A stretch of DNA of 64,000 bases, from positions 1 through 64,000 of the forward strand of contig NZ_LHQS01000001.1 of NCBI RefSeq assembly GCF_004102725.1. The letters are read 5' to 3'. A program made the position numbers and the translations under genes. This document shows, one piece after another, positions 7,800 through 20,569 of this stretch. This stretch comes from Methanoculleus taiwanensis (GTDB lineage: Archaea; Halobacteriota; Methanomicrobia; Methanomicrobiales; Methanoculleaceae). The notes under the pieces were generated by a model. The model did not search any database, had not been told where the DNA came from, and saw only the letters and a program-made list of their open reading frames with translations. Numbering within the stretch: the stretch's first letter is position 1; every line of letters begins with the position of its first letter.

Positions 7800-8303
7800 T
7801 CACCCGAGCGCCGGTACGCCGTCCGCCCAGGTCTCGACCGTGGTGCGGATCGCGTCGTCCTGGTAGCTCGTGATCCGGACCGCGTTCCTGCTGAACGTGA
7901 CGTAGTAGATCTCGCCGGACGGGTCGTGGCACTTCAGCTGGCACGAGTAGGAATCGTGCTCGGCGTCACGGACGGCCTCGCCGCCCATCGCGGCCGCGAG
8001 GGTCGCATCGCCCATGATCTCGGTAGCGACGCTGCCGAATGCGACGACCGTCGGCGCCCGTGCGGAGATCGCTCCGACCCGCTTGCCGTCGTTGTCCTCG
8101 TAGTTCACCTTCGCGGTGTAGGACTCGCGGTTCCGGGTCACGCCGTCATACGTGACGCCGCTCTCGATGTAGTCCACGCACCCGAAGGGGTTGTCTGCGA
8201 GCACGCTTCCGACGATAGCGTCGAAGGTGCCGATGTCGGCGATCGGCAGGGAAAGCTCCCGGACCGCCGTTTTGGTGTTGCTCTTCTCGACAAAGTCTGC
8301 CAT
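7800..8303 (-). CDS. uncharacterised soluble protein
   Basis: A 167-residue cytoplasmic protein starting MADFVEKSNTKTAVRELSLP, without signal peptide or membrane helix. I remember similar proteins from other methanogens but no function. It contains a conserved-looking core (NPFGCVDYIESGVTY, then SYTAKVNYEDNDGK) and a Cys-containing C-terminal segment (SYSCQLKCHDPSGEIYYVTFS). The start at 8303 follows CAGGAGC. A perfect 8-base inverted repeat lies 49-67 bases upstream and overlaps the probable TATA region, suggesting repression or activation by a dimeric regulator. Confidence 0.7.
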   Translation of the reverse strand: MADFVEKSNTKTAVRELSLPIADIGTFDAIVGSVLADNPFGCVDYIESGVTYDGVTRNRESYTAKVNYEDNDGKRVGAISARAPTVVAFGSVATEIMGDATLAAAMGGEAVRDAEHDSYSCQLKCHDPSGEIYYVTFSRNAVRITSYQDDAIRTTVETWADGVPALG

Positions 8304-10865: not shown

Positions 10866-11111
10866 ATGCCGGAGGAGAAGACCACCCGGGAGCTGATGTA
10901 TGAAACGAGCCGCGACGTCAAGTGGATCTGCCGGACGCTGCAGCGGATGGAGGAGCAGGCCGGCGACCACGAGGAACGCCTGCGAGACCTCGAGGGCTGG
11001 CGCGAGCGGAAGATCGGCGAGGAGCAGCGAGCCTGCCGGATCGGCGCCGGTGCCGGCGGCCTCGTCGGTGGAATCGTGGCGATGCTGGTGCGGCTGCTCG
11101 GGTTCGGGTGA
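10866..11111 (+). CDS. small coiled-coil protein with C-terminal membrane helix
   Basis: An 81-residue protein. Residues 3-55 are highly charged and helical (TSRDVKWICRTLQRMEEQAG, then DHEERLRDLEGW) and should form a coiled coil. Residues 58-79 are a Gly-rich membrane helix (IGAGAGGLVGGIVAMLVRLL). The plan resembles XhlA-type phage holin partners and other small coiled-coil anchors, but no phage genes adjoin it. A strong GGAGGGAGG ribosome-binding site precedes the ATG by two bases. A candidate operator lies about 45 bases upstream. Confidence 0.8.
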   Translation: MPEEKTTRELMYETSRDVKWICRTLQRMEEQAGDHEERLRDLEGWRERKIGEEQRACRIGAGAGGLVGGIVAMLVRLLGFG

Positions 11112-11143: not shown

Positions 11144-11548
11144 TCAGCACTCCGGCACGCCCGCTCGCGACCTGTGCTCCCGGATCGCTCCGGCGATCAC
11201 CTGCGCGAGGCTCCCGTACAGAACCGCCGGAACGCCGTCCTTCCGGAGCACGGCATCGGCCCCGGCACCGAGACAGTCAGCGGCTATCTCATCCCGGGAG
11301 CGCCCGGAGAGCACGATGATCGGTATTTCATGCCACCGGCTCCGGATCTCCCTGATGAAACCCGCCCCCTCGACATCCGGCATGGTATAATCCGTAACGA
11401 TTGCATCGAACCGCTTCTCTTCGAGCCGTGCCACCGCATCACCGGGCGACCCGGCGGTCGTGACCGAGAAGTCGCCCGACCGCTCGAGGAAGATCGTCCC
11501 GATCTCCAGGAGCGCCGGTTCGTCGTCGATGAGGAGGACAGAAACCAT
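11144..11548 (-). CDS. single-domain response regulator (receiver)
   Basis: A 134-residue CheY-like receiver. The acidic pair is Asp8-Asp9 (LLIDDEPALL), the phosphoacceptor is Asp53 in IVTDYTMPDVEG, the conserved Ser is in IIVLSGRS, and the Lys is in VLRKDG. There is no output domain, so it acts by protein-protein contact. It follows a CheW-like gene by 13 bases and closes a receptor-CheW-receiver set, although no histidine kinase is encoded here to phosphorylate it. Confidence 0.93.
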   Translation of the reverse strand: MVSVLLIDDEPALLEIGTIFLERSGDFSVTTAGSPGDAVARLEEKRFDAIVTDYTMPDVEGAGFIREIRSRWHEIPIIVLSGRSRDEIAADCLGAGADAVLRKDGVPAVLYGSLAQVIAGAIREHRSRAGVPEC

Positions 11549-11561
11549 AACGGCACGGCGG

Positions 11562-12041
11562 TCAGGCGCCCGTCACCTGCTCCTGCAGGAGCCGCCGGAC
11601 GTCGAGCCAGATGATGAGATTGGTCTGATCGGCATCTCTGCCGTCGGTCTCCTCCTCGGCGCCGAGCTTGATGATACCTTTGACGTAAGCGGTGCTCGAG
11701 GCCGCATCGTCCATCTCCTCGATGTCTCCTTCGGCCACCTGGCGGACACTGCTGACGTCGTCTACGATGATCCCGACGTTCGAACCTCCCGCAGCCTCCC
11801 GGACGAGGACGATGATCTTCCGGTTCTCAGCCGCCTCGCCGTCCGGCAGCCCGAGGAGGACGTTTACATTGATGATATTCGTAATCTCTCCCCGCAGGTT
11901 GATGATCCCTGCAATGTACGGGGGCGAGCGGGGAAGGGAGGTGATCGGCATCATCTCCACGATCTCCCGGGCGAGCTGGATATCCAGGGCATAGTGCTCT
12001 TTTCCGAGCTGAAACTCCACAACGTCGACGCATTGAACCAT
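11562..12041 (-). CDS. cheW: CheW-like coupling protein
   Basis: A 159-residue CheW domain protein. It begins QCVDVVEFQLGKEHYALDIQ, continues with PITSLPRSPPYIAGIINLRG (the conserved GxxNLRG signature) and ends with VRRLLQEQ. Such proteins bridge receptors and the CheA kinase. The ATG follows a GGAGGG ribosome-binding site. It lies 13 bases downstream of a cytoplasmic receptor gene and 13 bases upstream of a receiver gene, so the three are one operon. The middle contains an insertion with an acidic stretch around EEMDDAAS, slightly unusual for the family. Confidence 0.92.
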   Translation of the reverse strand: MVQCVDVVEFQLGKEHYALDIQLAREIVEMMPITSLPRSPPYIAGIINLRGEITNIINVNVLLGLPDGEAAENRKIIVLVREAAGGSNVGIIVDDVSSVRQVAEGDIEEMDDAASSTAYVKGIIKLGAEEETDGRDADQTNLIIWLDVRRLLQEQVTGA

Positions 12042-12054
12042 GTCGTCCCTCCGG

Positions 12055-14445
12055 TCAGACGCGGAACCGATTCATCTTCGCCCGCAGGTCTCCGGCCATC
12101 TGGTTGATCTCGTGGGCGGCGCTGCCGATCTCCTCAGTCGAGGCGCTGGCCTCCTCGGCGAGAGCCGCAAGGTCTTCCATCTGGCTCTGGGTTCCCTTGG
12201 TCAGGCGGGTTCCTTCCGCCATACCCTGGACGACGCTGTTCGTCGCGTTGGCCTGGTCTTCGGTCGCCCGGGCGATCTCGCCGAGCCCGTGCGTCACGAC
12301 CTCGGCCTCGCTGATGATCGTGTTGAGCGCCTCGATGGTCTGGGTAACGCTCGCAACCCCTGCCCCGATCTCGGTATGGGCCGACTTTATGGCGGTCGCG
12401 GTCTTCTCGCTGCTCGTCTGGATACCGGCGATCACCTTCTCGATATGCTGCGTCGCGCTTTTCGCTTCCCCGGCGAGGTTCCGCACCTCCCCGGCGACGA
12501 CGGCAAACCCGCGGCCGTGCTCTCCTGCCCGGGCGGCCTCGATCGCAGCGTTCAGCGCCAGCAGGTTGACCTGATTCGCGATATCGGTGATGAGCCTGAC
12601 AATGTTGTTGATCTCCCGCATCTGGGCGTTGAGCCCCTCGATCTCCTCGACGCTCTGCTGCGCGATCTGCTCGACCACCGCCATCTTCCGGTTCGCCCCG
12701 TCACCCAGCGTCTGAGCATTCATACCCTGTTGTGCGGCGTTCCGGGCGCGTCCGAGGACTTCCTGCGTCGTGCTTGCGATCTCCTCGTTCGACGCGGAAA
12801 GATCGGCAATCTGCCGGTCTATCTGCTCGATCTGCAGGAGCACCTGTTTGGAGAGGTCGGCGCACTTCTGGCTGGTATTCGCAACCTGCTCCGCAGCCTT
12901 TGCAATCTCCTCCGACCCCTTGCTCGTCTCGGCGGTGCCTGCCTCGACCTGCCCGATGGCCAGGTTGATCTCCCTGATGGCGGTTCCAATTGCACCCATG
13001 GCGTTGTTGAAATCGGTTTTCACCAGCTCGAGCGGGTCGGCCCTGCCGATCGCCACCGCGCACGTCAGGTCGCCCTTCGCGACCGCGGCAAGACCCGCAG
13101 CAAGCTCCTGAACGCTCCGGTCGAGGGCATCGGCCTTCCCCTGCGCCTCATCCATCAGAGCCTGCACCTGCCGCTCCTTCTCCCGCTGTTCGGTGATGTC
13201 CACGAAGACGGCGAGTATCTGCCTGACGTCGCCTTTTTCGTCGAGCAGGGGGATCGCCCATTCCTGGAGGATGAAGAGACCCGCCGGCATCTGCACCGTC
13301 ACTTCCCCGAAGACACGCTGCTTGTTTTTGAGGGCGCCGGCAAGCCCTTCTCCCTGCACGTCACGGATATCGAAGTTCCTGACGTTCATCTTGAGGACCT
13401 GCTCACGGCTGTACCCGGAGAGGTCGATGAATGCATCGTTCGTCTCGAGGATCTGCATCGTCGTGTCGACGAGCAGCATCGGAACGGGGTTCTGCCGGAC
13501 GATGGCGTCGGACTGCTGCTGCAGCTGCTGAACCTCCTCGACTTTTTGCTGCTGTTCCGTCCAGTCGTTCCAGACGTAAAACGCCATCTCGACCGTCCCG
13601 TTCGGATCGAGGATCGGGATGGCATTCAGGGTCAGGTACTTCTGCACTCCGTCCGGCCACTTCGCGAGTACGTCCGTCCGCGCCCGCTTCTTCGTCTCGT
13701 AGCAGGCGTAGAAATCGTCGCCGCCGATGACCGTGATGTCGTAGTCGTAGAGTTTCTTCCGCATCGTCTCTTCGCGGGTGCCCCGCCACATCCGGGCATA
13801 CTCATCGTTGATGTCAAGACGGCTCTTGTCCGCCCGGAGAACGGCGATCGCGAGGGGGTTGTCCTTAATCATCGTGTCGTTCCGCTGCTGTACCTTCTCG
13901 ACCTCCTCCATCTTCTCGTGGAGCTCCGTCCAGTCGTTCCAGACGTAGAAGGCTATCTCGATCTCGCCCTTCTCATCGAGGATGGGGATGGCGTTCAGGG
14001 TCAGGTATTTCCGGACGCCGTCGGGCCACTTCGCGAGCACATCCGTCCGCGCCCGCTTCTTCGTCTCGTAGCAGGCGTAGAAATCGTCGCCGCCGATGAC
14101 CGTGATGTCGTAGTCGTAGAGTTTCTTCCGCATCGTCTCTTCGCGGGTGCCCCGCCACATCCGGGCATACTCGTCGTTGATGTCAAGACGGCTCTTGTCC
14201 GCCCGGAGGACGGCGATCGCGAGGGGGTTATCCCGGATCATCTGCCGGAACCGTCTCTTTTGGGCGTTCGCTTCGCGGAGTTCCTCCTGATACGACTGAT
14301 CGCGCTCCCCGAGTGCGGCCAGTGCGGCGTTGAGCTGGTGTGCGAGCGGCTGGAGGTCATCTCCAACGGCAGCTGCATCAATCCGGGCGGCATAGTTCCC
14401 GGCGATGAGCTGGTCAAGTGCTTCTTTCAATGCTGCTGTATCCAA
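12055..14445 (-). CDS. cytoplasmic PAS-containing methyl-accepting chemotaxis receptor
   Basis: A 796-residue receptor without any membrane helix. The order is a short helical N-terminus, three PAS domains (about 73-173, 196-296 and 310-420), a HAMP-like segment, and the methyl-accepting coiled coil whose CheA/CheW-binding hairpin is intact (QVNLLALNAAIEAARAGEHG and what follows, about 615-650). PAS1 and PAS2 are almost identical in protein and DNA. The conserved HxxxC-free cores give no clear cofactor; the YDYDITVIGGDDFYACYE segment is shared by both copies. The start is TTG at 14445, supported by AAGGTGA seven bases upstream. The gene heads an operon with CheW and a receiver. Confidence 0.92.
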   Translation of the reverse strand: MDTAALKEALDQLIAGNYAARIDAAAVGDDLQPLAHQLNAALAALGERDQSYQEELREANAQKRRFRQMIRDNPLAIAVLRADKSRLDINDEYARMWRGTREETMRKKLYDYDITVIGGDDFYACYETKKRARTDVLAKWPDGVRKYLTLNAIPILDEKGEIEIAFYVWNDWTELHEKMEEVEKVQQRNDTMIKDNPLAIAVLRADKSRLDINDEYARMWRGTREETMRKKLYDYDITVIGGDDFYACYETKKRARTDVLAKWPDGVQKYLTLNAIPILDPNGTVEMAFYVWNDWTEQQQKVEEVQQLQQQSDAIVRQNPVPMLLVDTTMQILETNDAFIDLSGYSREQVLKMNVRNFDIRDVQGEGLAGALKNKQRVFGEVTVQMPAGLFILQEWAIPLLDEKGDVRQILAVFVDITEQREKERQVQALMDEAQGKADALDRSVQELAAGLAAVAKGDLTCAVAIGRADPLELVKTDFNNAMGAIGTAIREINLAIGQVEAGTAETSKGSEEIAKAAEQVANTSQKCADLSKQVLLQIEQIDRQIADLSASNEEIASTTQEVLGRARNAAQQGMNAQTLGDGANRKMAVVEQIAQQSVEEIEGLNAQMREINNIVRLITDIANQVNLLALNAAIEAARAGEHGRGFAVVAGEVRNLAGEAKSATQHIEKVIAGIQTSSEKTATAIKSAHTEIGAGVASVTQTIEALNTIISEAEVVTHGLGEIARATEDQANATNSVVQGMAEGTRLTKGTQSQMEDLAALAEEASASTEEIGSAAHEINQMAGDLRAKMNRFRV
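13558..14229. repeat. 369-base tandem duplication inside the receptor gene
   Basis: Two copies, about 13558-13860 and 13927-14229, offset by exactly 369 bases (123 codons), each encode one PAS domain. Over roughly 180 bases in the left part of each reading (from cgcccgcttcttcg onward) I count only about three differences, including at synonymous positions. This points to recent duplication or gene conversion. Confidence 0.85.
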
Positions 14446-15028
14446 TGCTTGTCACCTTGTCTGATTGTAAAACGGCGGATGGTTCCAAAGGGCGGCGAGC
14501 ACCGCACCGGGGTTTTTAGCCCTCGTATGAAACAGAGAGAGCAGACGACGAACCCGGGCGTTCCGAAGGCAGCATTCGAAGAGAATGACAGCGGTTCCGG
14601 ATTGTCCCGTGCCGGCTACGAGAGGACGGGCCGTGTCGTGCAGTGCCCTGCTGATTGCCTGGCAGATCTGCCGAATGCTAAGCAGATCTGATTGCCTTTG
14701 TCCCGGTAGTTAATCGTAAATTATAAAGGTTTCGATACTTTTTTGCCAAAATCCGAGGATTTTAATACTTTATCTCAGAAAAGCAGGAAGGATTTTAGGA
14801 TCAAGACCATATAAAACCTTTGTTTACGAGAGGGGGAGGCCGAAGACGACACCGCGGTTATTTTACGCCTCGTTCAGGTGGAACCCGCCGGAGCGCCGCC
14901 ACCGCGATCGTATACCCGTCCCCGGCAGCCCGGCACGGGTCGGCGACGCGGGTGACGGCGGGCGACCCGCTCCGCGCAGGGAGGTCCCGCCGCCCGCGTC
15001 CGGAGGCGACCTACAGATTAATGCTGCT
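14446..15028. other. 583-base intergenic region with repeats and AT-rich promoter-like DNA
   Basis: No convincing gene. GCAGATCTG occurs at 14662-14670 and 14682-14690, exactly 20 bases apart, flanked outside by GATTGCCT at 14653-14660 and 14690-14697. The stretch 14700-14820 is unusually AT-rich and has three TATA-like elements (near 14720, 14761 and 14811) and a T6 run near 14738. It could hold the promoters of the divergent receptor and lipoprotein genes, a small RNA, or both. Confidence 0.5.
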
Positions 15029-15493
15029 GTGATTCGACGTATCATAATGCACCAGTCTCCGATGCACCTGCTTGCCGCTCTGCTTCTCCTTGCCGGGACA
15101 TGCGTCTCGGGCTGCACGGGGCAGGATACCGTGGTCTCCGGCGAGGAGCGAGCGATCATAGTCGCGTACGCCGATCCGATCGCCGAGAACCTCCTGCAGG
15201 GGTTCAACGAGGGCAATTACACGATCTACTCACGGGATTTCGGCGTTGAGATGAAAAGGAGCCTTACCGAGGCGGTATTTCTGCAGAACCGCAAGTTCGT
15301 CACGTCCAGAATAGGGCTCTACGAGTCCCGGGGCGACCCGATCGTTACGGAGCAGGGCGAGTATATCGCCGTCAACTATCCGGCGACGTTCGAGCGGGAG
15401 GACGGCGTGAACGTCCGGCTTGTCTTCAGAAAGGGCGATCCGTCGCACCTGCTCTACGGGCTCTGGTTCAATTCACCGGCGCTGCAACGGTGA
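15029..15493 (+). CDS. small lipoprotein, DUF3887-like
   Basis: A 154-residue exported lipoprotein from a GTG at 15029, or 148 residues from the ATG at 15047; neither has a strong ribosome-binding site. The signal peptide ends in the lipobox VSGC. The mature part (about 125 residues) has the pattern of DUF3887-type NTF2-like domains: NLLQGFNEGNYTIYSRDF near its start, then RLVFRKGD and LYGLWFN at the end. Such proteins probably bind small ligands at the cell surface. It stands alone between the long intergenic region and a convergent Cys-rich gene. Confidence 0.78.
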   Translation: MIRRIIMHQSPMHLLAALLLLAGTCVSGCTGQDTVVSGEERAIIVAYADPIAENLLQGFNEGNYTIYSRDFGVEMKRSLTEAVFLQNRKFVTSRIGLYESRGDPIVTEQGEYIAVNYPATFEREDGVNVRLVFRKGDPSHLLYGLWFNSPALQR

Positions 15494-15509
15494 TACACCG
15501 CCTGCCGCC

Positions 15510-15905
15510 TCACCACGCCTCTCCGCACCGCAGGCAGCGGTTCCGGTGGACGCAGAGGATAGCTCCACAGTGCGGGCAGGTCCACCGGGTCTTCTCCTGT
15601 TCGATGAATTCGTCGATCCCCCGCTCCCGTATTGCGTGCAGATTGTCGAGCATGCTCATCCAGTATTTCACGTACCGTTTGTCGAGCCGTTTCAACCGTG
15701 CACAGGGGTATTCGGCGCAGTCGTAGCAGTAGTCTCCCGTCCGGTCTTCGCACTGCCGGATGCGGCACCTGGCGCAGGACGGGCGCAGTCCGGCGGCATC
15801 CTCCGTCCGACAGCCGGGACATCGGTTCTTCTCCCGCAGGTAGCCGATGCAGAGCCCACAGTTCATACCGCAGGGAGCGATCAGGGCAGGAGAGAGGCGG
15901 GTCAT
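15510..15905 (-). CDS. Cys-rich DUF3795 protein
   Basis: A 131-residue protein. The N-terminal APCGMNCGLCIGYL and NRCPGCRTED, then CARCRIRQC and YCYDCAEYPC are the typical DUF3795 cysteine pattern, probably one or two Zn or Fe-S sites. The C-terminal TRWTCPHCGAILCVHRNRCL adds a zinc-ribbon extension. DUF3795 proteins are frequent in methanogens and anaerobes; their role is unknown. The gene is convergent with the preceding lipoprotein gene, 16 bases apart. Confidence 0.85.
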   Translation of the reverse strand: MTRLSPALIAPCGMNCGLCIGYLREKNRCPGCRTEDAAGLRPSCARCRIRQCEDRTGDYCYDCAEYPCARLKRLDKRYVKYWMSMLDNLHAIRERGIDEFIEQEKTRWTCPHCGAILCVHRNRCLRCGEAW

Positions 15906-16005
15906 TGCTTCTCGTATGCTCGCCGCAGGGCAAGAAGTCTCTTTCGGGAGCGGGCGGTCACCTGCAATTGCACGGCAGCCATGGAGAGGGGGTGAAGAAG
16001 ACGGT

Positions 16006-16758
16006 TCAGCGGCTCCTCAGAATGAAGAACTCGTAGCCGTACTCGTCTCCGTGCTCCCGGTGCACCGCGATCTCCCGCTCCGAGAACGCGACGAACGCTT
16101 CCGCGTCGGGATTGCCGGCGGCCACCTTCTTCAGGTCGGGCAGCCGCTCTATGAGCGGCGTATAGTAGTGATCCCACCAGACGGACCCGGGAAGTGGGAA
16201 GGTCGCGACGACCTCGTAGCCGGCCTTTTCAGCGATCGCACAGGTCTCCGGAACCGTTGTTATCGCCGGGTAGCAGTCGTTCCAGAACGCCGCCGCCTCC
16301 GGCGAGGGCTGATCGGTGAACCAGACCGCTTCGCTGAGGCAGAAGTAGCCGCTCGGCCGGAGAAGCCGCTTCCACAACCGGAGTCCTTTCTCAAACCCCA
16401 CGATGAAGATAGAACTCTCCGCCCAGAGGACGTCGAAGGCTGCATCCTCAAACGGCAGATCGTCCATGGACTCTCTCACCGTCGTGATCCTGTCCCCCAC
16501 CCCGGCCGCTGCCGCCTTCCGGGCGAGATCGTCCAGGTACGGCTGGTGGATGTCGACGGCGGTGATATGACAGTTCGGGCATATACGGCCGAGCTCGATC
16601 GTCTGCATCCCCGCCCCACACCCGATATCCAGGATCTCCGGCTGGTCCGGGAGATTTTTCAGCATCGAAAACGCTTTTTGCGTGCACGCGTTGCTACCCG
16701 GCCCCTGGCGGGGCAGTCCCTCGTGCATGGTGAAGAGGAATGACATATCCATTACCAT
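16006..16758 (-). CDS. class I SAM-dependent methyltransferase
   Basis: A 250-residue protein with motif I EILDIGCGAGMQTIELG (about residues 41-57), motif II ITAVDIHQPYL, motif III MDDLPF followed by FDVLWAES. The N-terminal HEGLPRQGPGSNACTQKAF resembles methanogen methyltransferases that act on small molecules. Three in-frame ATGs lie at 16758, 16752 and 16746; the first is taken. Substrate unknown. The fold is different in detail from the methyltransferases at 867 and 22372, so these are not recent copies. Confidence 0.87.
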   Translation of the reverse strand: MVMDMSFLFTMHEGLPRQGPGSNACTQKAFSMLKNLPDQPEILDIGCGAGMQTIELGRICPNCHITAVDIHQPYLDDLARKAAAAGVGDRITTVRESMDDLPFEDAAFDVLWAESSIFIVGFEKGLRLWKRLLRPSGYFCLSEAVWFTDQPSPEAAAFWNDCYPAITTVPETCAIAEKAGYEVVATFPLPGSVWWDHYYTPLIERLPDLKKVAAGNPDAEAFVAFSEREIAVHREHGDEYGYEFFILRSR

Positions 16759-16901
16759 TCATGCGCCGTCTGATCCGATAAAGGAGCAGGCGACAGGCCG
16801 GAATAAGCCGGCCATGCAGACCAGACCGAAGCGCCCGCAGTACCTTCCACCGACACCCTCATAGCACCACCCCGCCCATACTCTCTCCGGGAAGTACCGG
16901 A

Positions 16902-17642
16902 ATGGACCTTGCAACGTTCTTTGAAGACGCAGAAGTCGACGTCTTCGCCAGGGTCGGGATCGACGACCTCGCCGACGCGGACAGGGCGGCGGTTCTGCAG
17001 TTCCTCCCGGCAGCCCGGTCCGTGATCATCTTCGGGAAGGAAGTCCCGGTCGCGGTCTACCGGATGGGGCAGAAAGAGAAGACCAGGGAGATGCTCCGGA
17101 TTGCAGAGGGACTCGACGAAACCGCCGTGCGGCTCGCCGACCGCCTGAAGGCCGACGATATCCCGGCCCGCCCCGTTCCGCTCTACCTGCCCGTACGGTT
17201 CGCCGGCGGGAGGGTGCAGGGCGTCGTCCGGCTCAAGTCGATCGCAGCGGCCGCCGGAGTCGGGGAGATCGGCAGGAACACCGTTCTCCTCACGCACCGC
17301 TTCGGCCCGCGGCTGCTCCTCGCCGGCGTCGTGACCGCAGAGCCGGCTCCGGAGTCCAGAACAACCGCTGCTGCGCCGCTCTGCACCGGGTGCGGAGACT
17401 GCATCCGGGCCTGCCCGGAAGGAGCGATAGGGCCGGACGGTGTCGACGCATTCCGGTGCCGGACCGTCCGTGCCTGGGTGCCGCCCCCGGTCGTCCCGGC
17501 CGTGACGTGGCTGCTCCGGCGGCAGGCGCTCGTCGGGAGCCTCGCCCCGCTTGCACCGTGGATTGCGAAGACCGCGACGATCCGGTGCAGCCGCTGCGTC
17601 ACCGAATGCCCGCGGTTTGCGGGAGACGAGGGGAAGGGATAA
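16902..17642 (+). CDS. QueG-like 4Fe-4S protein
   Basis: A 246-residue iron-sulfur protein. The N-terminal domain (AARSVIIFGKEVPVAVYRMG, about 38-57) resembles the corrinoid-binding part of epoxyqueuosine reductase-like proteins. One classic [4Fe-4S] set is visible, CTGCGDCIRACPEGAI (about 164-179), and a second Cys cluster, CSRCVTECPRF, at the C-terminus. It is shorter than true QueG (about 350 residues) and lacks its HEAT repeats, so a role in tRNA modification is doubtful. Methanogens carry several such QueG-related ferredoxin-type reductases. The gene appears monocistronic; a degraded Orc1/Cdc6 remnant converges on it. Confidence 0.8.
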   Translation: MDLATFFEDAEVDVFARVGIDDLADADRAAVLQFLPAARSVIIFGKEVPVAVYRMGQKEKTREMLRIAEGLDETAVRLADRLKADDIPARPVPLYLPVRFAGGRVQGVVRLKSIAAAAGVGEIGRNTVLLTHRFGPRLLLAGVVTAEPAPESRTTAAAPLCTGCGDCIRACPEGAIGPDGVDAFRCRTVRAWVPPPVVPAVTWLLRRQALVGSLAPLAPWIAKTATIRCSRCVTECPRFAGDEGKG

Positions 17643-17700
17643 GTCACCGCACCCCCGCCTCGCGGGAGCGGTAGACGGCTTTTCCGGCATCGCAGACCGT

Positions 17701-17886
17701 GTGCCGGGCGGGCCGCGGAGGACGGCGCTCTCCGGGCTGCCGCCGTGGAGAACCGGCCGTGCGAGGAAGGCAAGCTCGCGGAGCTGGTCGTCGCGGTGGT
17801 TGAGCTGATCGGGCGTAGGTGAACTCGAAAACCTTGCGGTCGCGGAAGAGCGTCTGGTCGTGGCGCAGGGTTTCTTTCTGCCTCAT
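17701..17886 (-). pseudogene. Orc1/Cdc6 N-terminal remnant
   Basis: Reading leftward from the ATG at 17886 gives about 25 residues (RHDQTLFRDRKVFEFTYA) typical of the start of archaeal Orc1/Cdc6. The frame then shifts near 17811-17813 and continues as DQLNHRDDQLRELAFLARPV, then ending with VLRGPPGT. The Walker A motif (expected GPPGTGKT) is broken after GPPGT, and nothing of the remaining 300 or so residues follows. It is therefore a frameshifted, truncated initiator gene. Identification is from memory of the family pattern. Confidence 0.7.
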
Positions 17887-17943
17887 AGGTAAGCGTTCAG
17901 GAGACGGAGTCATATAAAATCGCGGCGGGCGCGGGTTGAAAGT

Positions 17944-17950
17944 AAAAAAA
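17944..17950 (-). terminator. poly-T terminator after the cytosine deaminase gene
   Basis: Seven consecutive A on the plus strand read as T7 on the minus strand, about 41 bases after the stop of the leftward deaminase gene. Archaeal RNA polymerase terminates at such U-tracts. Confidence 0.5.
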
Positions 17951-17990
17951 GAGCATGATACGATGCCGGGACGGTGAAGAGCGATCGTCC

Positions 17991-18434
17991 CTACTCTTCT
18001 TCCCCGATATCCTCATACCACAACGCGGGATTCGCGGCAATGAACTCCTGCATCAGCCGCAGGCACTCCGGATCGTCCAGGACTACCAGTTCCACGCCCC
18101 GCGAGCGGAGATACTCTTCAGGCCCCTGGAAAGTCCGGTGTTCACCGATCACGACCCGGGGTATTTTGTAGAGCAGGACTGCGCCGCTGCACATGTCGCA
18201 CGGGGAGAGCGTCGAGTACAGCACCGCCCGGCGGTAATCCCCGGGCTTGAGCCTGCCCGCATTCTCCAGGCAGTCCATCTCGGCGTGCAGGACGGCGCTG
18301 CCCTTCTGCACTCTCCGGTTATGCCCCCGGCCGACGATGGTGCCGTCGATCACCAGCACCGAGCCGATGGGAATCCCCCCTTCTATCAATCCCTTTCTGG
18401 CCTCTTCGATAGCGGCCTGCATGAATGCATCCAT
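17991..18434 (-). CDS. cytosine deaminase, yeast Fcy1-like
   Basis: A 147-residue zinc-dependent deaminase converting cytosine to uracil in pyrimidine salvage. The catalytic HAE is at residues 50-52 and the zinc-binding PCDMC at 78-82. Beyond these, the match to yeast Fcy1 that I recall runs along the whole protein: EGGIPIGSVLV, GRGHNRRVQKGSAVLHAE, LENAGRLKPGDY, LYSTLSPCDMCSGA, IPRVVIGEHRTFQG, and the C-terminal WYEDIGE, which closes the yeast active site. A tRNA adenosine deaminase would lack this tail. The ATG at 18434 is preferred; a frame extension of 13 residues upstream has no family support. The gene is monocistronic. Confidence 0.85.
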   Translation of the reverse strand: MDAFMQAAIEEARKGLIEGGIPIGSVLVIDGTIVGRGHNRRVQKGSAVLHAEMDCLENAGRLKPGDYRRAVLYSTLSPCDMCSGAVLLYKIPRVVIGEHRTFQGPEEYLRSRGVELVVLDDPECLRLMQEFIAANPALWYEDIGEEE

Positions 18435-18619
18435 TGCTGTAACACCCCCGGGTAGAGATGGCCGGTGAGACATTGAATATTGCGATCTCTGACTCGGGAC
18501 GCATCAGCATCGAAGCGTGAGATGGTACAGGTGATCATCACGGGTAATCCGGGCATCCGGCAGGAATGCCGGGTCGGAAGGTCACAATGTTTATTATACC
18601 GATCATACTATTCGCACCC

Positions 18620-20569
18620 ATGGCACTACCGAAACGCTATGCACTACTTTTGTGTCTCCTGATACTGCCGGGAACGCTCCTCGTGTCCGGATGCCTCTCC
18701 GACCGGCAGGTTACTGCCATAACCAGCACACCGTCCACAACGGATCTGACCTACTATACCGAGCAGAATCCGCCCTACAACTTCGAGGAGAACGGGACAC
18801 TGCAGGGGATCTCCGTCGAGCTCCTGGAGTTGATCACCGCGAAGATGGGCGAAAACGTCTCCCGCGAGGCGGTGCGTCTGGTACCCTGGACAGAAGGCTA
18901 CCAGGCGGCACTGACCCAGAATAAGACCGTGCTCTTCACTACGGCCCGGCTACCCGAGCGGGAGCAGTCCTTCAAATGGGTCGGGCCGATCTATACCTAC
19001 ACGAATGTCCTCTTTGCCCGCCCGGAGAGCGGGATCGTGATCGACGAACCGGGTGACCTTAAGGAGTATCGGATCGGGGTGATCGTCGATGATGCGGCCG
19101 TCCAGCAGCTGCTGGATGCGGGAGTGAACGAGAGCCAGCTCGTCTACGAAACCGATCTGTTCGCAGTCATCGATAAACTCGAGAACGGCGAGATCGACCT
19201 CTGGGCCTACCCGAAGGAATCAGGCCGATACTTCACCTGGCAGGCGACCGGGAACGCGTACGCTTTCAGGATCGTCTCTGCCCTGCCGGCCCTGGAAGGC
19301 TACTACGCGTTCAGCAGGGACGTTCCCGATGCAACCATCCGGTCTTTCCAGCAGGCGCTGGATTCCTTGAAAGCCGAGAAGGATGCGACGGGGATCAGCA
19401 CCTACGAGAGGGTTCTGGGGCGGTACGCCCCCGTGATCGGCCTGGCTCAGCTGCAGTACCTGACCGAGGAACTGGCACCCTATAACTTCGAGGAGAACGG
19501 GACGGCAAGCGGTATCGCGGTCGAGATCCTGGAGGCGGTTTTCAAAGATATCGGGGTGAACGCATCCCGGGAAGACATCCGCATCGTTCCGTTTGCCGAG
19601 GGGTTGCAGGCGGCGCAGAACGGCAGCACCGTGCTCTTCTCCGTCGTTCGCACACCGGAACGCGAGCCGCTGTACGAGTGGGCGGGGCCGTTCACCAGTG
19701 GGAGAGTCGTGATCTATGCACCGATGGAGAGAGATATCACGATCGCCTCCGACGAGGATCTGAACCGGTACCAGATCGGCGCCGTCCAGGCCTCCGTCGA
19801 GAACGATCTCCTCGCCGACCGGGGGGTGAACACATCCCGGATCGTCAACGGCAAAGCCCCCGAGGATCTCTTGCGGATGCTTGAATCAGGAGAGATCGAC
19901 CTCTGGGCGACGGGCGATCTCGCCGGACGGCACCAGATGCTGCAGACGGCGGAGAACCCGGACGCCTACGAGATCGTCTACACCTTAAGCGAGAACGACC
20001 TCTACTATCTCTTCAGTAAGGACGTCCCGGATCTGCTGGTCAGCGCCTTTGAACAGTCGCTCGAGAACGTACGGAACCAGAAGGATGCCACAGGGGTCAG
20101 CGAGTACGAGCGGATCCTGTACCGCTACCTGGGAGTGGGGTGCGCCCGGCAGACGTTTACCGATGCCGAGGTGACGACGCTCGTGAACAGAACCGCTACC
20201 GACATCGAGAAGAACGCCACCGGGACGCTCCGGGCGATCAACGCGGGGAAGGCTCCCTACCAGGACCCGGAGAATCCGGCTCTCTACGTCTTCGTCTACG
20301 ACGAGAACGTGACGATGGTTGCCAACGCAGACAACATCCAGCAGGTCGGCATCAACTACCGGGGCAAGACCGACGTGACGGGCAAGCCGTTCCGTGACGA
20401 GATCGTCGCCGGTGCGCAGGAGAACGGCACCGGGTGGGTGGAGTACGTCTACAGCAACCCGGCCGAGACGAACCTGTACTACAAGACCACCTACTACCGC
20501 CTGACCGAAGGGAGCGACAATAGGACCTACATTGTCTGCAGCGGCAGGTTCAAGGGCTGCGAGGAGTGA
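18620..20569 (+). CDS. lipoprotein with two solute-binding (SBP_bac_3) domains and a Cache domain
   Basis: About 649 residues. A signal peptide ends in the lipobox VSGC, so the protein is anchored outside the membrane. Residues about 40-280 and 285-520 are two tandem family-3 solute-binding domains; each begins with PYNFEENGT and contains GEIDLWA, so they arose by duplication. The last 140 residues form a single Cache_2-type domain (PALYVFVYDENVTMVANADN, ending YIVCSGRFKG). This is the extracellular layout of a chemosensor or transducer, yet no membrane helix, kinase or receptor module follows. The ATG at 18620 starts the signal peptide. It may present ligands to a separate receptor. Confidence 0.87.
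   Translation: MALPKRYALLLCLLILPGTLLVSGCLSDRQVTAITSTPSTTDLTYYTEQNPPYNFEENGTLQGISVELLELITAKMGENVSREAVRLVPWTEGYQAALTQNKTVLFTTARLPEREQSFKWVGPIYTYTNVLFARPESGIVIDEPGDLKEYRIGVIVDDAAVQQLLDAGVNESQLVYETDLFAVIDKLENGEIDLWAYPKESGRYFTWQATGNAYAFRIVSALPALEGYYAFSRDVPDATIRSFQQALDSLKAEKDATGISTYERVLGRYAPVIGLAQLQYLTEELAPYNFEENGTASGIAVEILEAVFKDIGVNASREDIRIVPFAEGLQAAQNGSTVLFSVVRTPEREPLYEWAGPFTSGRVVIYAPMERDITIASDEDLNRYQIGAVQASVENDLLADRGVNTSRIVNGKAPEDLLRMLESGEIDLWATGDLAGRHQMLQTAENPDAYEIVYTLSENDLYYLFSKDVPDLLVSAFEQSLENVRNQKDATGVSEYERILYRYLGVGCARQTFTDAEVTTLVNRTATDIEKNATGTLRAINAGKAPYQDPENPALYVFVYDENVTMVANADNIQQVGINYRGKTDVTGKPFRDEIVAGAQENGTGWVEYVYSNPAETNLYYKTTYYRLTEGSDNRTYIVCSGRFKGCEE

Follow-up and report, generated by a model that had tools for sequence, protein, structure and literature searches.

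A decayed Orc1/Cdc6 gene start in the window (the whole stretch of 64 kb analyzed here) is very probably one end of a dead, internally deleted replication module of a Methanomicrobiales mobile element. The initial annotation had described about 62 Orc1/Cdc6 codons at 17701-17886, in two frames and ending in a broken Walker A motif, and had offered two readings of them: an integrated element that carried its own initiator, or a lost replication origin. Alignment and the profile NF001624 bear out that description, and for the coding part the span needs no correction; the remnant as a whole is longer, 17644-17946, and of the two readings the integrated element is supported and the lost origin is not. 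The evidence for the module comprises both of its ends, their fusion, an orthologous decayed copy in a sister genome, the predicted folds of its larger protein and its spread among relatives. Coordinates are collected in Table 1.

Table 1. Parts of the remnant and its two flanking genes in the window.
Feature	Position	Strand	Evidence
Upstream (putative promoter) part of element cdc6	17887..17946	-	DNA alignment with intact copies begins at 17946
Orc1/Cdc6 codons 1-24, ATG at 17886	17815..17886	-	NF001624 positions 2-24, E 7e-4; alignment with intact copy
Orc1/Cdc6 codons about 26-63, second frame, truncated Walker A	17701..17813	-	NF001624 25-63, E 9e-10
Fragment of C-terminal zinc finger, element primase-helicase	17657..17701	-	82% identity with L023:10178-10222 across 45 nt
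Last bases and stop codon of primase-helicase gene (TGA 17646-17644)	17644..17656	-	Alignment with four intact genes
Flanking intact 4Fe-4S protein gene, not element	16902..17642	+	Pfam Fer4 matches
Flanking deaminase gene, not element	17991..18473	-	PF00383, E 1.1e-21

The cdc6 stub lies on the minus strand (17886..17701) and corresponds to Orc1/Cdc6 codons 1-63 in two frames, of which the first reads MRQKETLRHDQTLFRDRKVFEFTY and the second PDQLNHRDDQLRELAFLARPVLHGGSPESAVLRGPPGT in translation. The frame break is one 2-nt deletion at about 17814, and the stub stops within Walker A, at GPPGT. Both translated pieces match the NCBIfam profile NF001624 (ORC1-type DNA replication protein), and they are consecutive, since the second takes up the profile at the position after the first leaves it; their scores fall far under the whole-protein cut-offs, as expected for fragments. 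The second-frame piece also matches TIGR02928 (E 6e-8) and residues 20-63 of the Cdc6 at locus L023 (70% identity, E 3.5e-15). Pfam gave no match to the 24-aa piece and only sub-threshold ones to the 44-aa piece, namely AAA_16 at E 0.012 and, at chance level, BCL9 at E 0.071. As DNA, 17946..17701 shares 87.5% identity with an intact cdc6 of the same genome (306 bits, compared with 29.2 bits for the best of 100 dinucleotide shuffles), and the stub protein shares 50 of 62 residues with its best intact relative, which is likewise in that genome.

Ahead of the start codon, a TATA-like TTTTATAT at 17919-17912, 26-33 nt from the cdc6 ATG, is a putative promoter. Compared with archaeal Orc1/Cdc6 proteins (NF001624/TIGR02928), the stub represents the first 63 residues: the N-terminal segment up to Walker A is homologous, but Walker A is cut, and the complete AAA+ domain (Walker A, B and lid) and the C-terminal winged helix are missing, a search of all 64 kb of the window at E 0.01 having matched nothing more of cdc6. 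Because the gene is cut at GPPGT and the window holds no more of it, the stub is a pseudogene of the family and not a functional member. Rfam, searched at the gathering score over 15000-20000, gave no match.

The cdc6 piece is joined at 17701 to a second gene, which encodes a primase-helicase and of which the C-terminal zinc-finger end is left. The finger fragment (17657..17701) scores 46.4 bits against L023, where the best of 200 shuffles reaches 29.2, and eight of the nine places found for this stretch by blastn lie inside primase-helicase genes or pieces of them, the exception being G000:C1:382675 in the window's own genome (G000). About 60 nt of the finger are missing between this fragment and the last bases of the gene, whose end reads GGGGGTGCGGTGA (or GGGGGTGCGATGA) in all four aligned intact genes. 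In the intact module of the same genome (G000:C2), the two join points are L023:5554 and 10178, 4.6 kb apart; in L025 they are likewise separated by 4.6 kb, and in L037 by 4.5 kb. GCAC occurs at the break points of both parents of this large deletion and the smaller deletion sits between copies of CGCGAGG, so the breaks would fit deletion between short repeats. Two points about the 3' fragment tell against our explanation: at only about 58 nt it was too short for tblastn with the whole primase-helicase, which missed it in the window at E 0.01 and in the genome search as well, and it could derive from a stand-alone zinc-finger ORF, many finger-only pieces being in existence.

The same locus in the sister species Methanoculleus sp. 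FWC-SCC1 (genome G001, locus L027) keeps both module ends, decayed differently from those in the window. Codons 2-26 of cdc6 survive at L027:5017-5091 with the start codon lost, and finger residues 893-913 and 934-953, with the stop codon at the end, at L027:6301-6431; the order is deaminase, cdc6 piece, unrelated gene, finger pieces, lipoprotein gene. The module ends share their order, orientation and deaminase and lipoprotein neighbors in the two genomes, with 15029-15493 as the counterpart of the lipoprotein gene in the window, and the deaminase, 89% identical in G001 and standing there beside the orthologous remnant, marks the locus as shared. Since both ends lie among the same neighbors and carry different deletions, one insertion before the species split is the best fit; judging from these alignments, the insertion probably predates the split, and two separate insertions into one site are the less likely course. 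Three window genes (15510-17642) between the remnant and the lipoprotein gene were not found in L027, so the locus has been rearranged in other ways too, which also counts against our explanation. The 4Fe-4S gene is convergent with the remnant, which its stop codon abuts, and has homologs in 21 of the 41 genomes at E <= 1e-20, with none in G001.

The deaminase is divergent from a solute-binding/Cache gene in the window (17991-20569), and the two are also paired in G001, G031 and G040; in other family members with a deaminase match, the match is distant only (55-60%). At four of four other deaminase loci checked (L044-L047), no match to the remnant was better than E 0.1. We rejected the deaminase neighborhood as an empty site, the neighborhoods of L044-L047 being too different to define an unoccupied one.

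The intact module consists, in order, of cdc6, two small ORFs and one gene with primase, MCM-like helicase, HTH and zinc-finger parts; in the intact copy of the window's genome this second gene, downstream of cdc6, encodes 953 aa. Pfam gave nothing above cutoff for the 953-aa protein from L023; among 25 relatives, only a minority had matches to AAA, HTH and other families, all of them weak. The HTH is a weak MarR_2 match at 649-696 (E 0.009, below cutoff), with HTH matches in at most 4 of the 25 members, and two CxxC pairs lie near the C terminus. Structure predictions were made on the homolog from L117 (959 aa). The model of its N-terminal 342 residues has a mean pLDDT of 89.7, and residues 1-236 resemble archaeo-eukaryotic (AEP) primases (6zp9_A best, Z 16.7, rmsd 2.4, 173 aligned); the full-length model has a mean pLDDT of 68.7 and a pTM of 0.41, and residues 353-646 resemble MCM helicases (6mii_A best, Z 21.9, rmsd 3.5, 271 aligned). 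Searched by sequence with the primase-helicase, solved structures yielded nothing useful (best E 0.44) and PHROGs a weak match of unknown function (E 2.8e-5). A reading of the protein as viral or plasmid-borne was rejected: viral contigs gave 73 loci, all within query residues 1-355 and at identities of up to 56%, two phage records covered 32% of the query, and none of the 13 plasmid records matched covered 80%.

Primase-helicase matches were found in 28 of 41 genomes (the window's own and 40 relatives), with as many as 10 match rows in a single genome and with many fragments among them; the window's own genome has three long copies and three fragments. We surveyed the neighborhoods of the best 80 of 246 confirmed named loci. 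Of these 80, 20 had a related tyrosine recombinase and 16 a cdc6, eight times upstream on the same strand and eight times downstream on the opposite strand, and two small conserved ORFs occurred in 38 and 39; all of these counts are lower bounds, because contig ends cut many loci. The eight loci with upstream cdc6 come from records named Methanoculleus (seven) and Methanomicrobiales (one), and the scar in the window fits the upstream arrangement only.

The type of Cdc6 was examined in a non-exhaustive tree of 26 proteins from selected loci, with the long orc1 branch left out. The remnant falls in a clade with 17 other Cdc6 rows (100/100 support), apart from the chromosomal cdc6-2, and by their coordinates a primase-helicase match adjoins 14 of these 17. 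It is 81% identical to the C2 copy of its own genome and 50% to chromosomal cdc6-2. On the strength of these protein comparisons the remnant groups, at the level of the clade as a whole, with element-type Cdc6; this grouping, together with the join to the 3' end of the primase-helicase gene, supports the integrated-element reading of the initial annotation. Elsewhere, the window's genome has orc1 and cdc6-2 intact; an element-type cdc6, also intact, lies at C2:893 kb, and C2:551 kb has a fourth gene of the family. Counting against our explanation, the Cdc6 proteins of G007, G009:C11 and G012 belong to the clade without a primase-helicase nearby, and G007 and G012 have none genome-wide. The downstream, opposite-strand Cdc6 of G037 falls outside the clade.

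A further point against our explanation is that Cdc6 and integrase are seldom found together: among the best 80 of 246 loci, only 1 of the 16 with cdc6 (L138) also has an integrase. The same count, and the lack of any integrase match in the 64-kb window, would suit an arrival of the module copy by segmental duplication or homologous recombination instead of integrase-mediated insertion of a whole element. We consider such an arrival unlikely, since copies without cdc6 (L121, L122, L127, L164, G000C2b and G020 among them) have, about 1-5 kb upstream, a tyrosine recombinase and published elements of the same domain order are described as having integrases, some with mapped integration sites (PMC4158269). 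Because no integrase was found in the window itself, we infer, and do not observe, entry by site-specific integration.

The intact TATA-like sequence and start codon, and the retention of a cdc6 5' end in other broken copies (L029, L030, L040 and L041), might suggest that the scar has been kept for a function, either as the source of a short transcript or peptide from the upstream region or with the cdc6 5' end as a recombination anchor. This is very improbable: the G001 ortholog has lost its start codon, the remnant-specific substitutions are distributed 4, 3 and 6 over the codon positions (small counts), some copies retain a middle or 3' part rather than the 5' end, and good conservation of the 5' part means that an excess of 5' ends may be a detection bias. 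Among the matches listed, the preference for cdc6 5' ends is an impression by eye to which the same bias may contribute, and we make no claim of it.

Scarcely credible is a chromosomal origin with a third orc1/cdc6 that stood at the remnant and then decayed, with the stub in the element-type Cdc6 clade and fused to the end of a primase-helicase gene. In its favor, archaeal orc1/cdc6 genes are described as commonly adjoining origins (PMC3984812), the stub retains its upstream region, and cumulative GC skew, computed over the window only, has a shallow local minimum at 12-20 kb; however, a deeper minimum lies at 40-44 kb, so there is no singular skew signal at the remnant. The orc1 locus carries origin boxes of the type TTCCACTGGAAACGAAGGGG, and all five matches to them in the genome at <=2 mismatches (one in the reversed control) lie at C1:243,229-246,931 near the intact orc1, about 225 kb from the remnant. 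None was found near the stub or anywhere else in the window at <=3 mismatches, a pattern that boxes of another type would escape, although no sign of an origin with such boxes was seen; a shorter core of the box has one match in the window versus 2.58 expected by chance. Canonical-looking boxes stand at L001:168-530 near the intact orc1, with more about 2 kb downstream of orc1. By the placement of the boxes, the chromosomal origin likely lies at about 243-247 kb of G000:C1.

Under our preferred explanation, a decayed element module, the locus would already have contained the module when this lineage and Methanoculleus sp. FWC-SCC1 separated, each then losing different parts. Loss of 4.6 kb in the window lineage would have fused codon 63 of cdc6 to the zinc finger, most of which would have gone in a further deletion of about 60 nt; the 2-nt deletion would have shifted the cdc6 reading frame, leaving a copy that is presumably inert now. 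In a living element, Cdc6 may bind the element's own origin and help to load the MCM-like helicase domain, which would unwind DNA while the fused primase starts synthesis; the tyrosine recombinase near some copies would integrate the element.

Small integrated archaeal elements have been described that encode a protein with primase, helicase, HTH and zinc finger, Mpal_2033 of Methanosphaerula palustris (arCOG07809; PMC4158269, 2014). The intact source copies have the same domain order, as judged from fold prediction, a weak HTH and CxxC pairs and with Mpal_2033 known by its description only; the remnant does not have this order. The window copy differs from those elements in being a 300-nt relic, and some Methanoculleus copies differ in carrying cdc6 beside the module. 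Section 10 of the same paper names, as recognizable further ORFs besides integrases, two endonucleases only, and its table includes an Orc/Cdc6-related family in dark-matter islands in general (PMC4158269). The helicase is assigned there to superfamily I, whereas our structure model predicts an MCM AAA+ match. A literature search with most subscription journals outside its coverage found no paper on Cdc6 in arCOG07809-type elements. The element protein also distantly resembles the Rep-like protein of the 4.4-kb Methanothermobacter marburgensis plasmid (NC_014409) over residues 366-666 (23% identity, E 1e-8), a match to the helicase part only, 32% of the query.

The remnant is an ordinary, well-resolved fossil of a known kind of element, and the association of Cdc6 with a primase/MCM-like protein is its most interesting part. 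We tentatively suggest, as a possibility that may well fail, that the family is a mobile replicon with self-contained, eukaryote-like initiation, a Cdc6 initiator/loader with a single-chain primase/MCM-like helicase, across the Methanomicrobiales, and that scars of a cdc6 5' end and a primase 3' end would be a usual end of dead copies. Encoded side by side, Cdc6 and the primase/MCM-like protein offer a compact system for testing helicase loading by Cdc6. The remnant also illustrates that a broken archaeal orc1/cdc6 need not mark a lost origin, since this one could be followed, base by base, back to the module of a mobile element.

The window scar is one of several decay products. At L105:6890-7705 (G001:C3), the cdc6 upstream region and three codons stand 147 nt before primase-helicase residues 728-924, and further truncated 5' ends of cdc6 occur in L029, L030, L040 and L041. 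In L030:6192-6488 and L041:3016-3120, from two other genomes, the ORFs that come after the cdc6 5' fragment begin alike, as if by a recurrent recombination event or at a hot spot; by eye, the G022 ORF after the cdc6 fragment resembles an HTH and nucleotidyltransferase protein.

Two small genes of unknown function found near cdc6 in several Methanoculleus loci (L124, L125, L126 and L129) have homologs elsewhere in the window, at 7806-8303 (-) with 56% identity and at 10866-11108 (+) with 68%. Between the two homologs lies a 771-aa ORF that reads as a dockerin-type surface protein, and large ORFs separate the same pair of small genes near the C2 element. A chemotaxis-like cluster, with a response regulator, a CheW-like protein and a methyl-accepting sensor named from their translations, occupies 11144-14445 (-).
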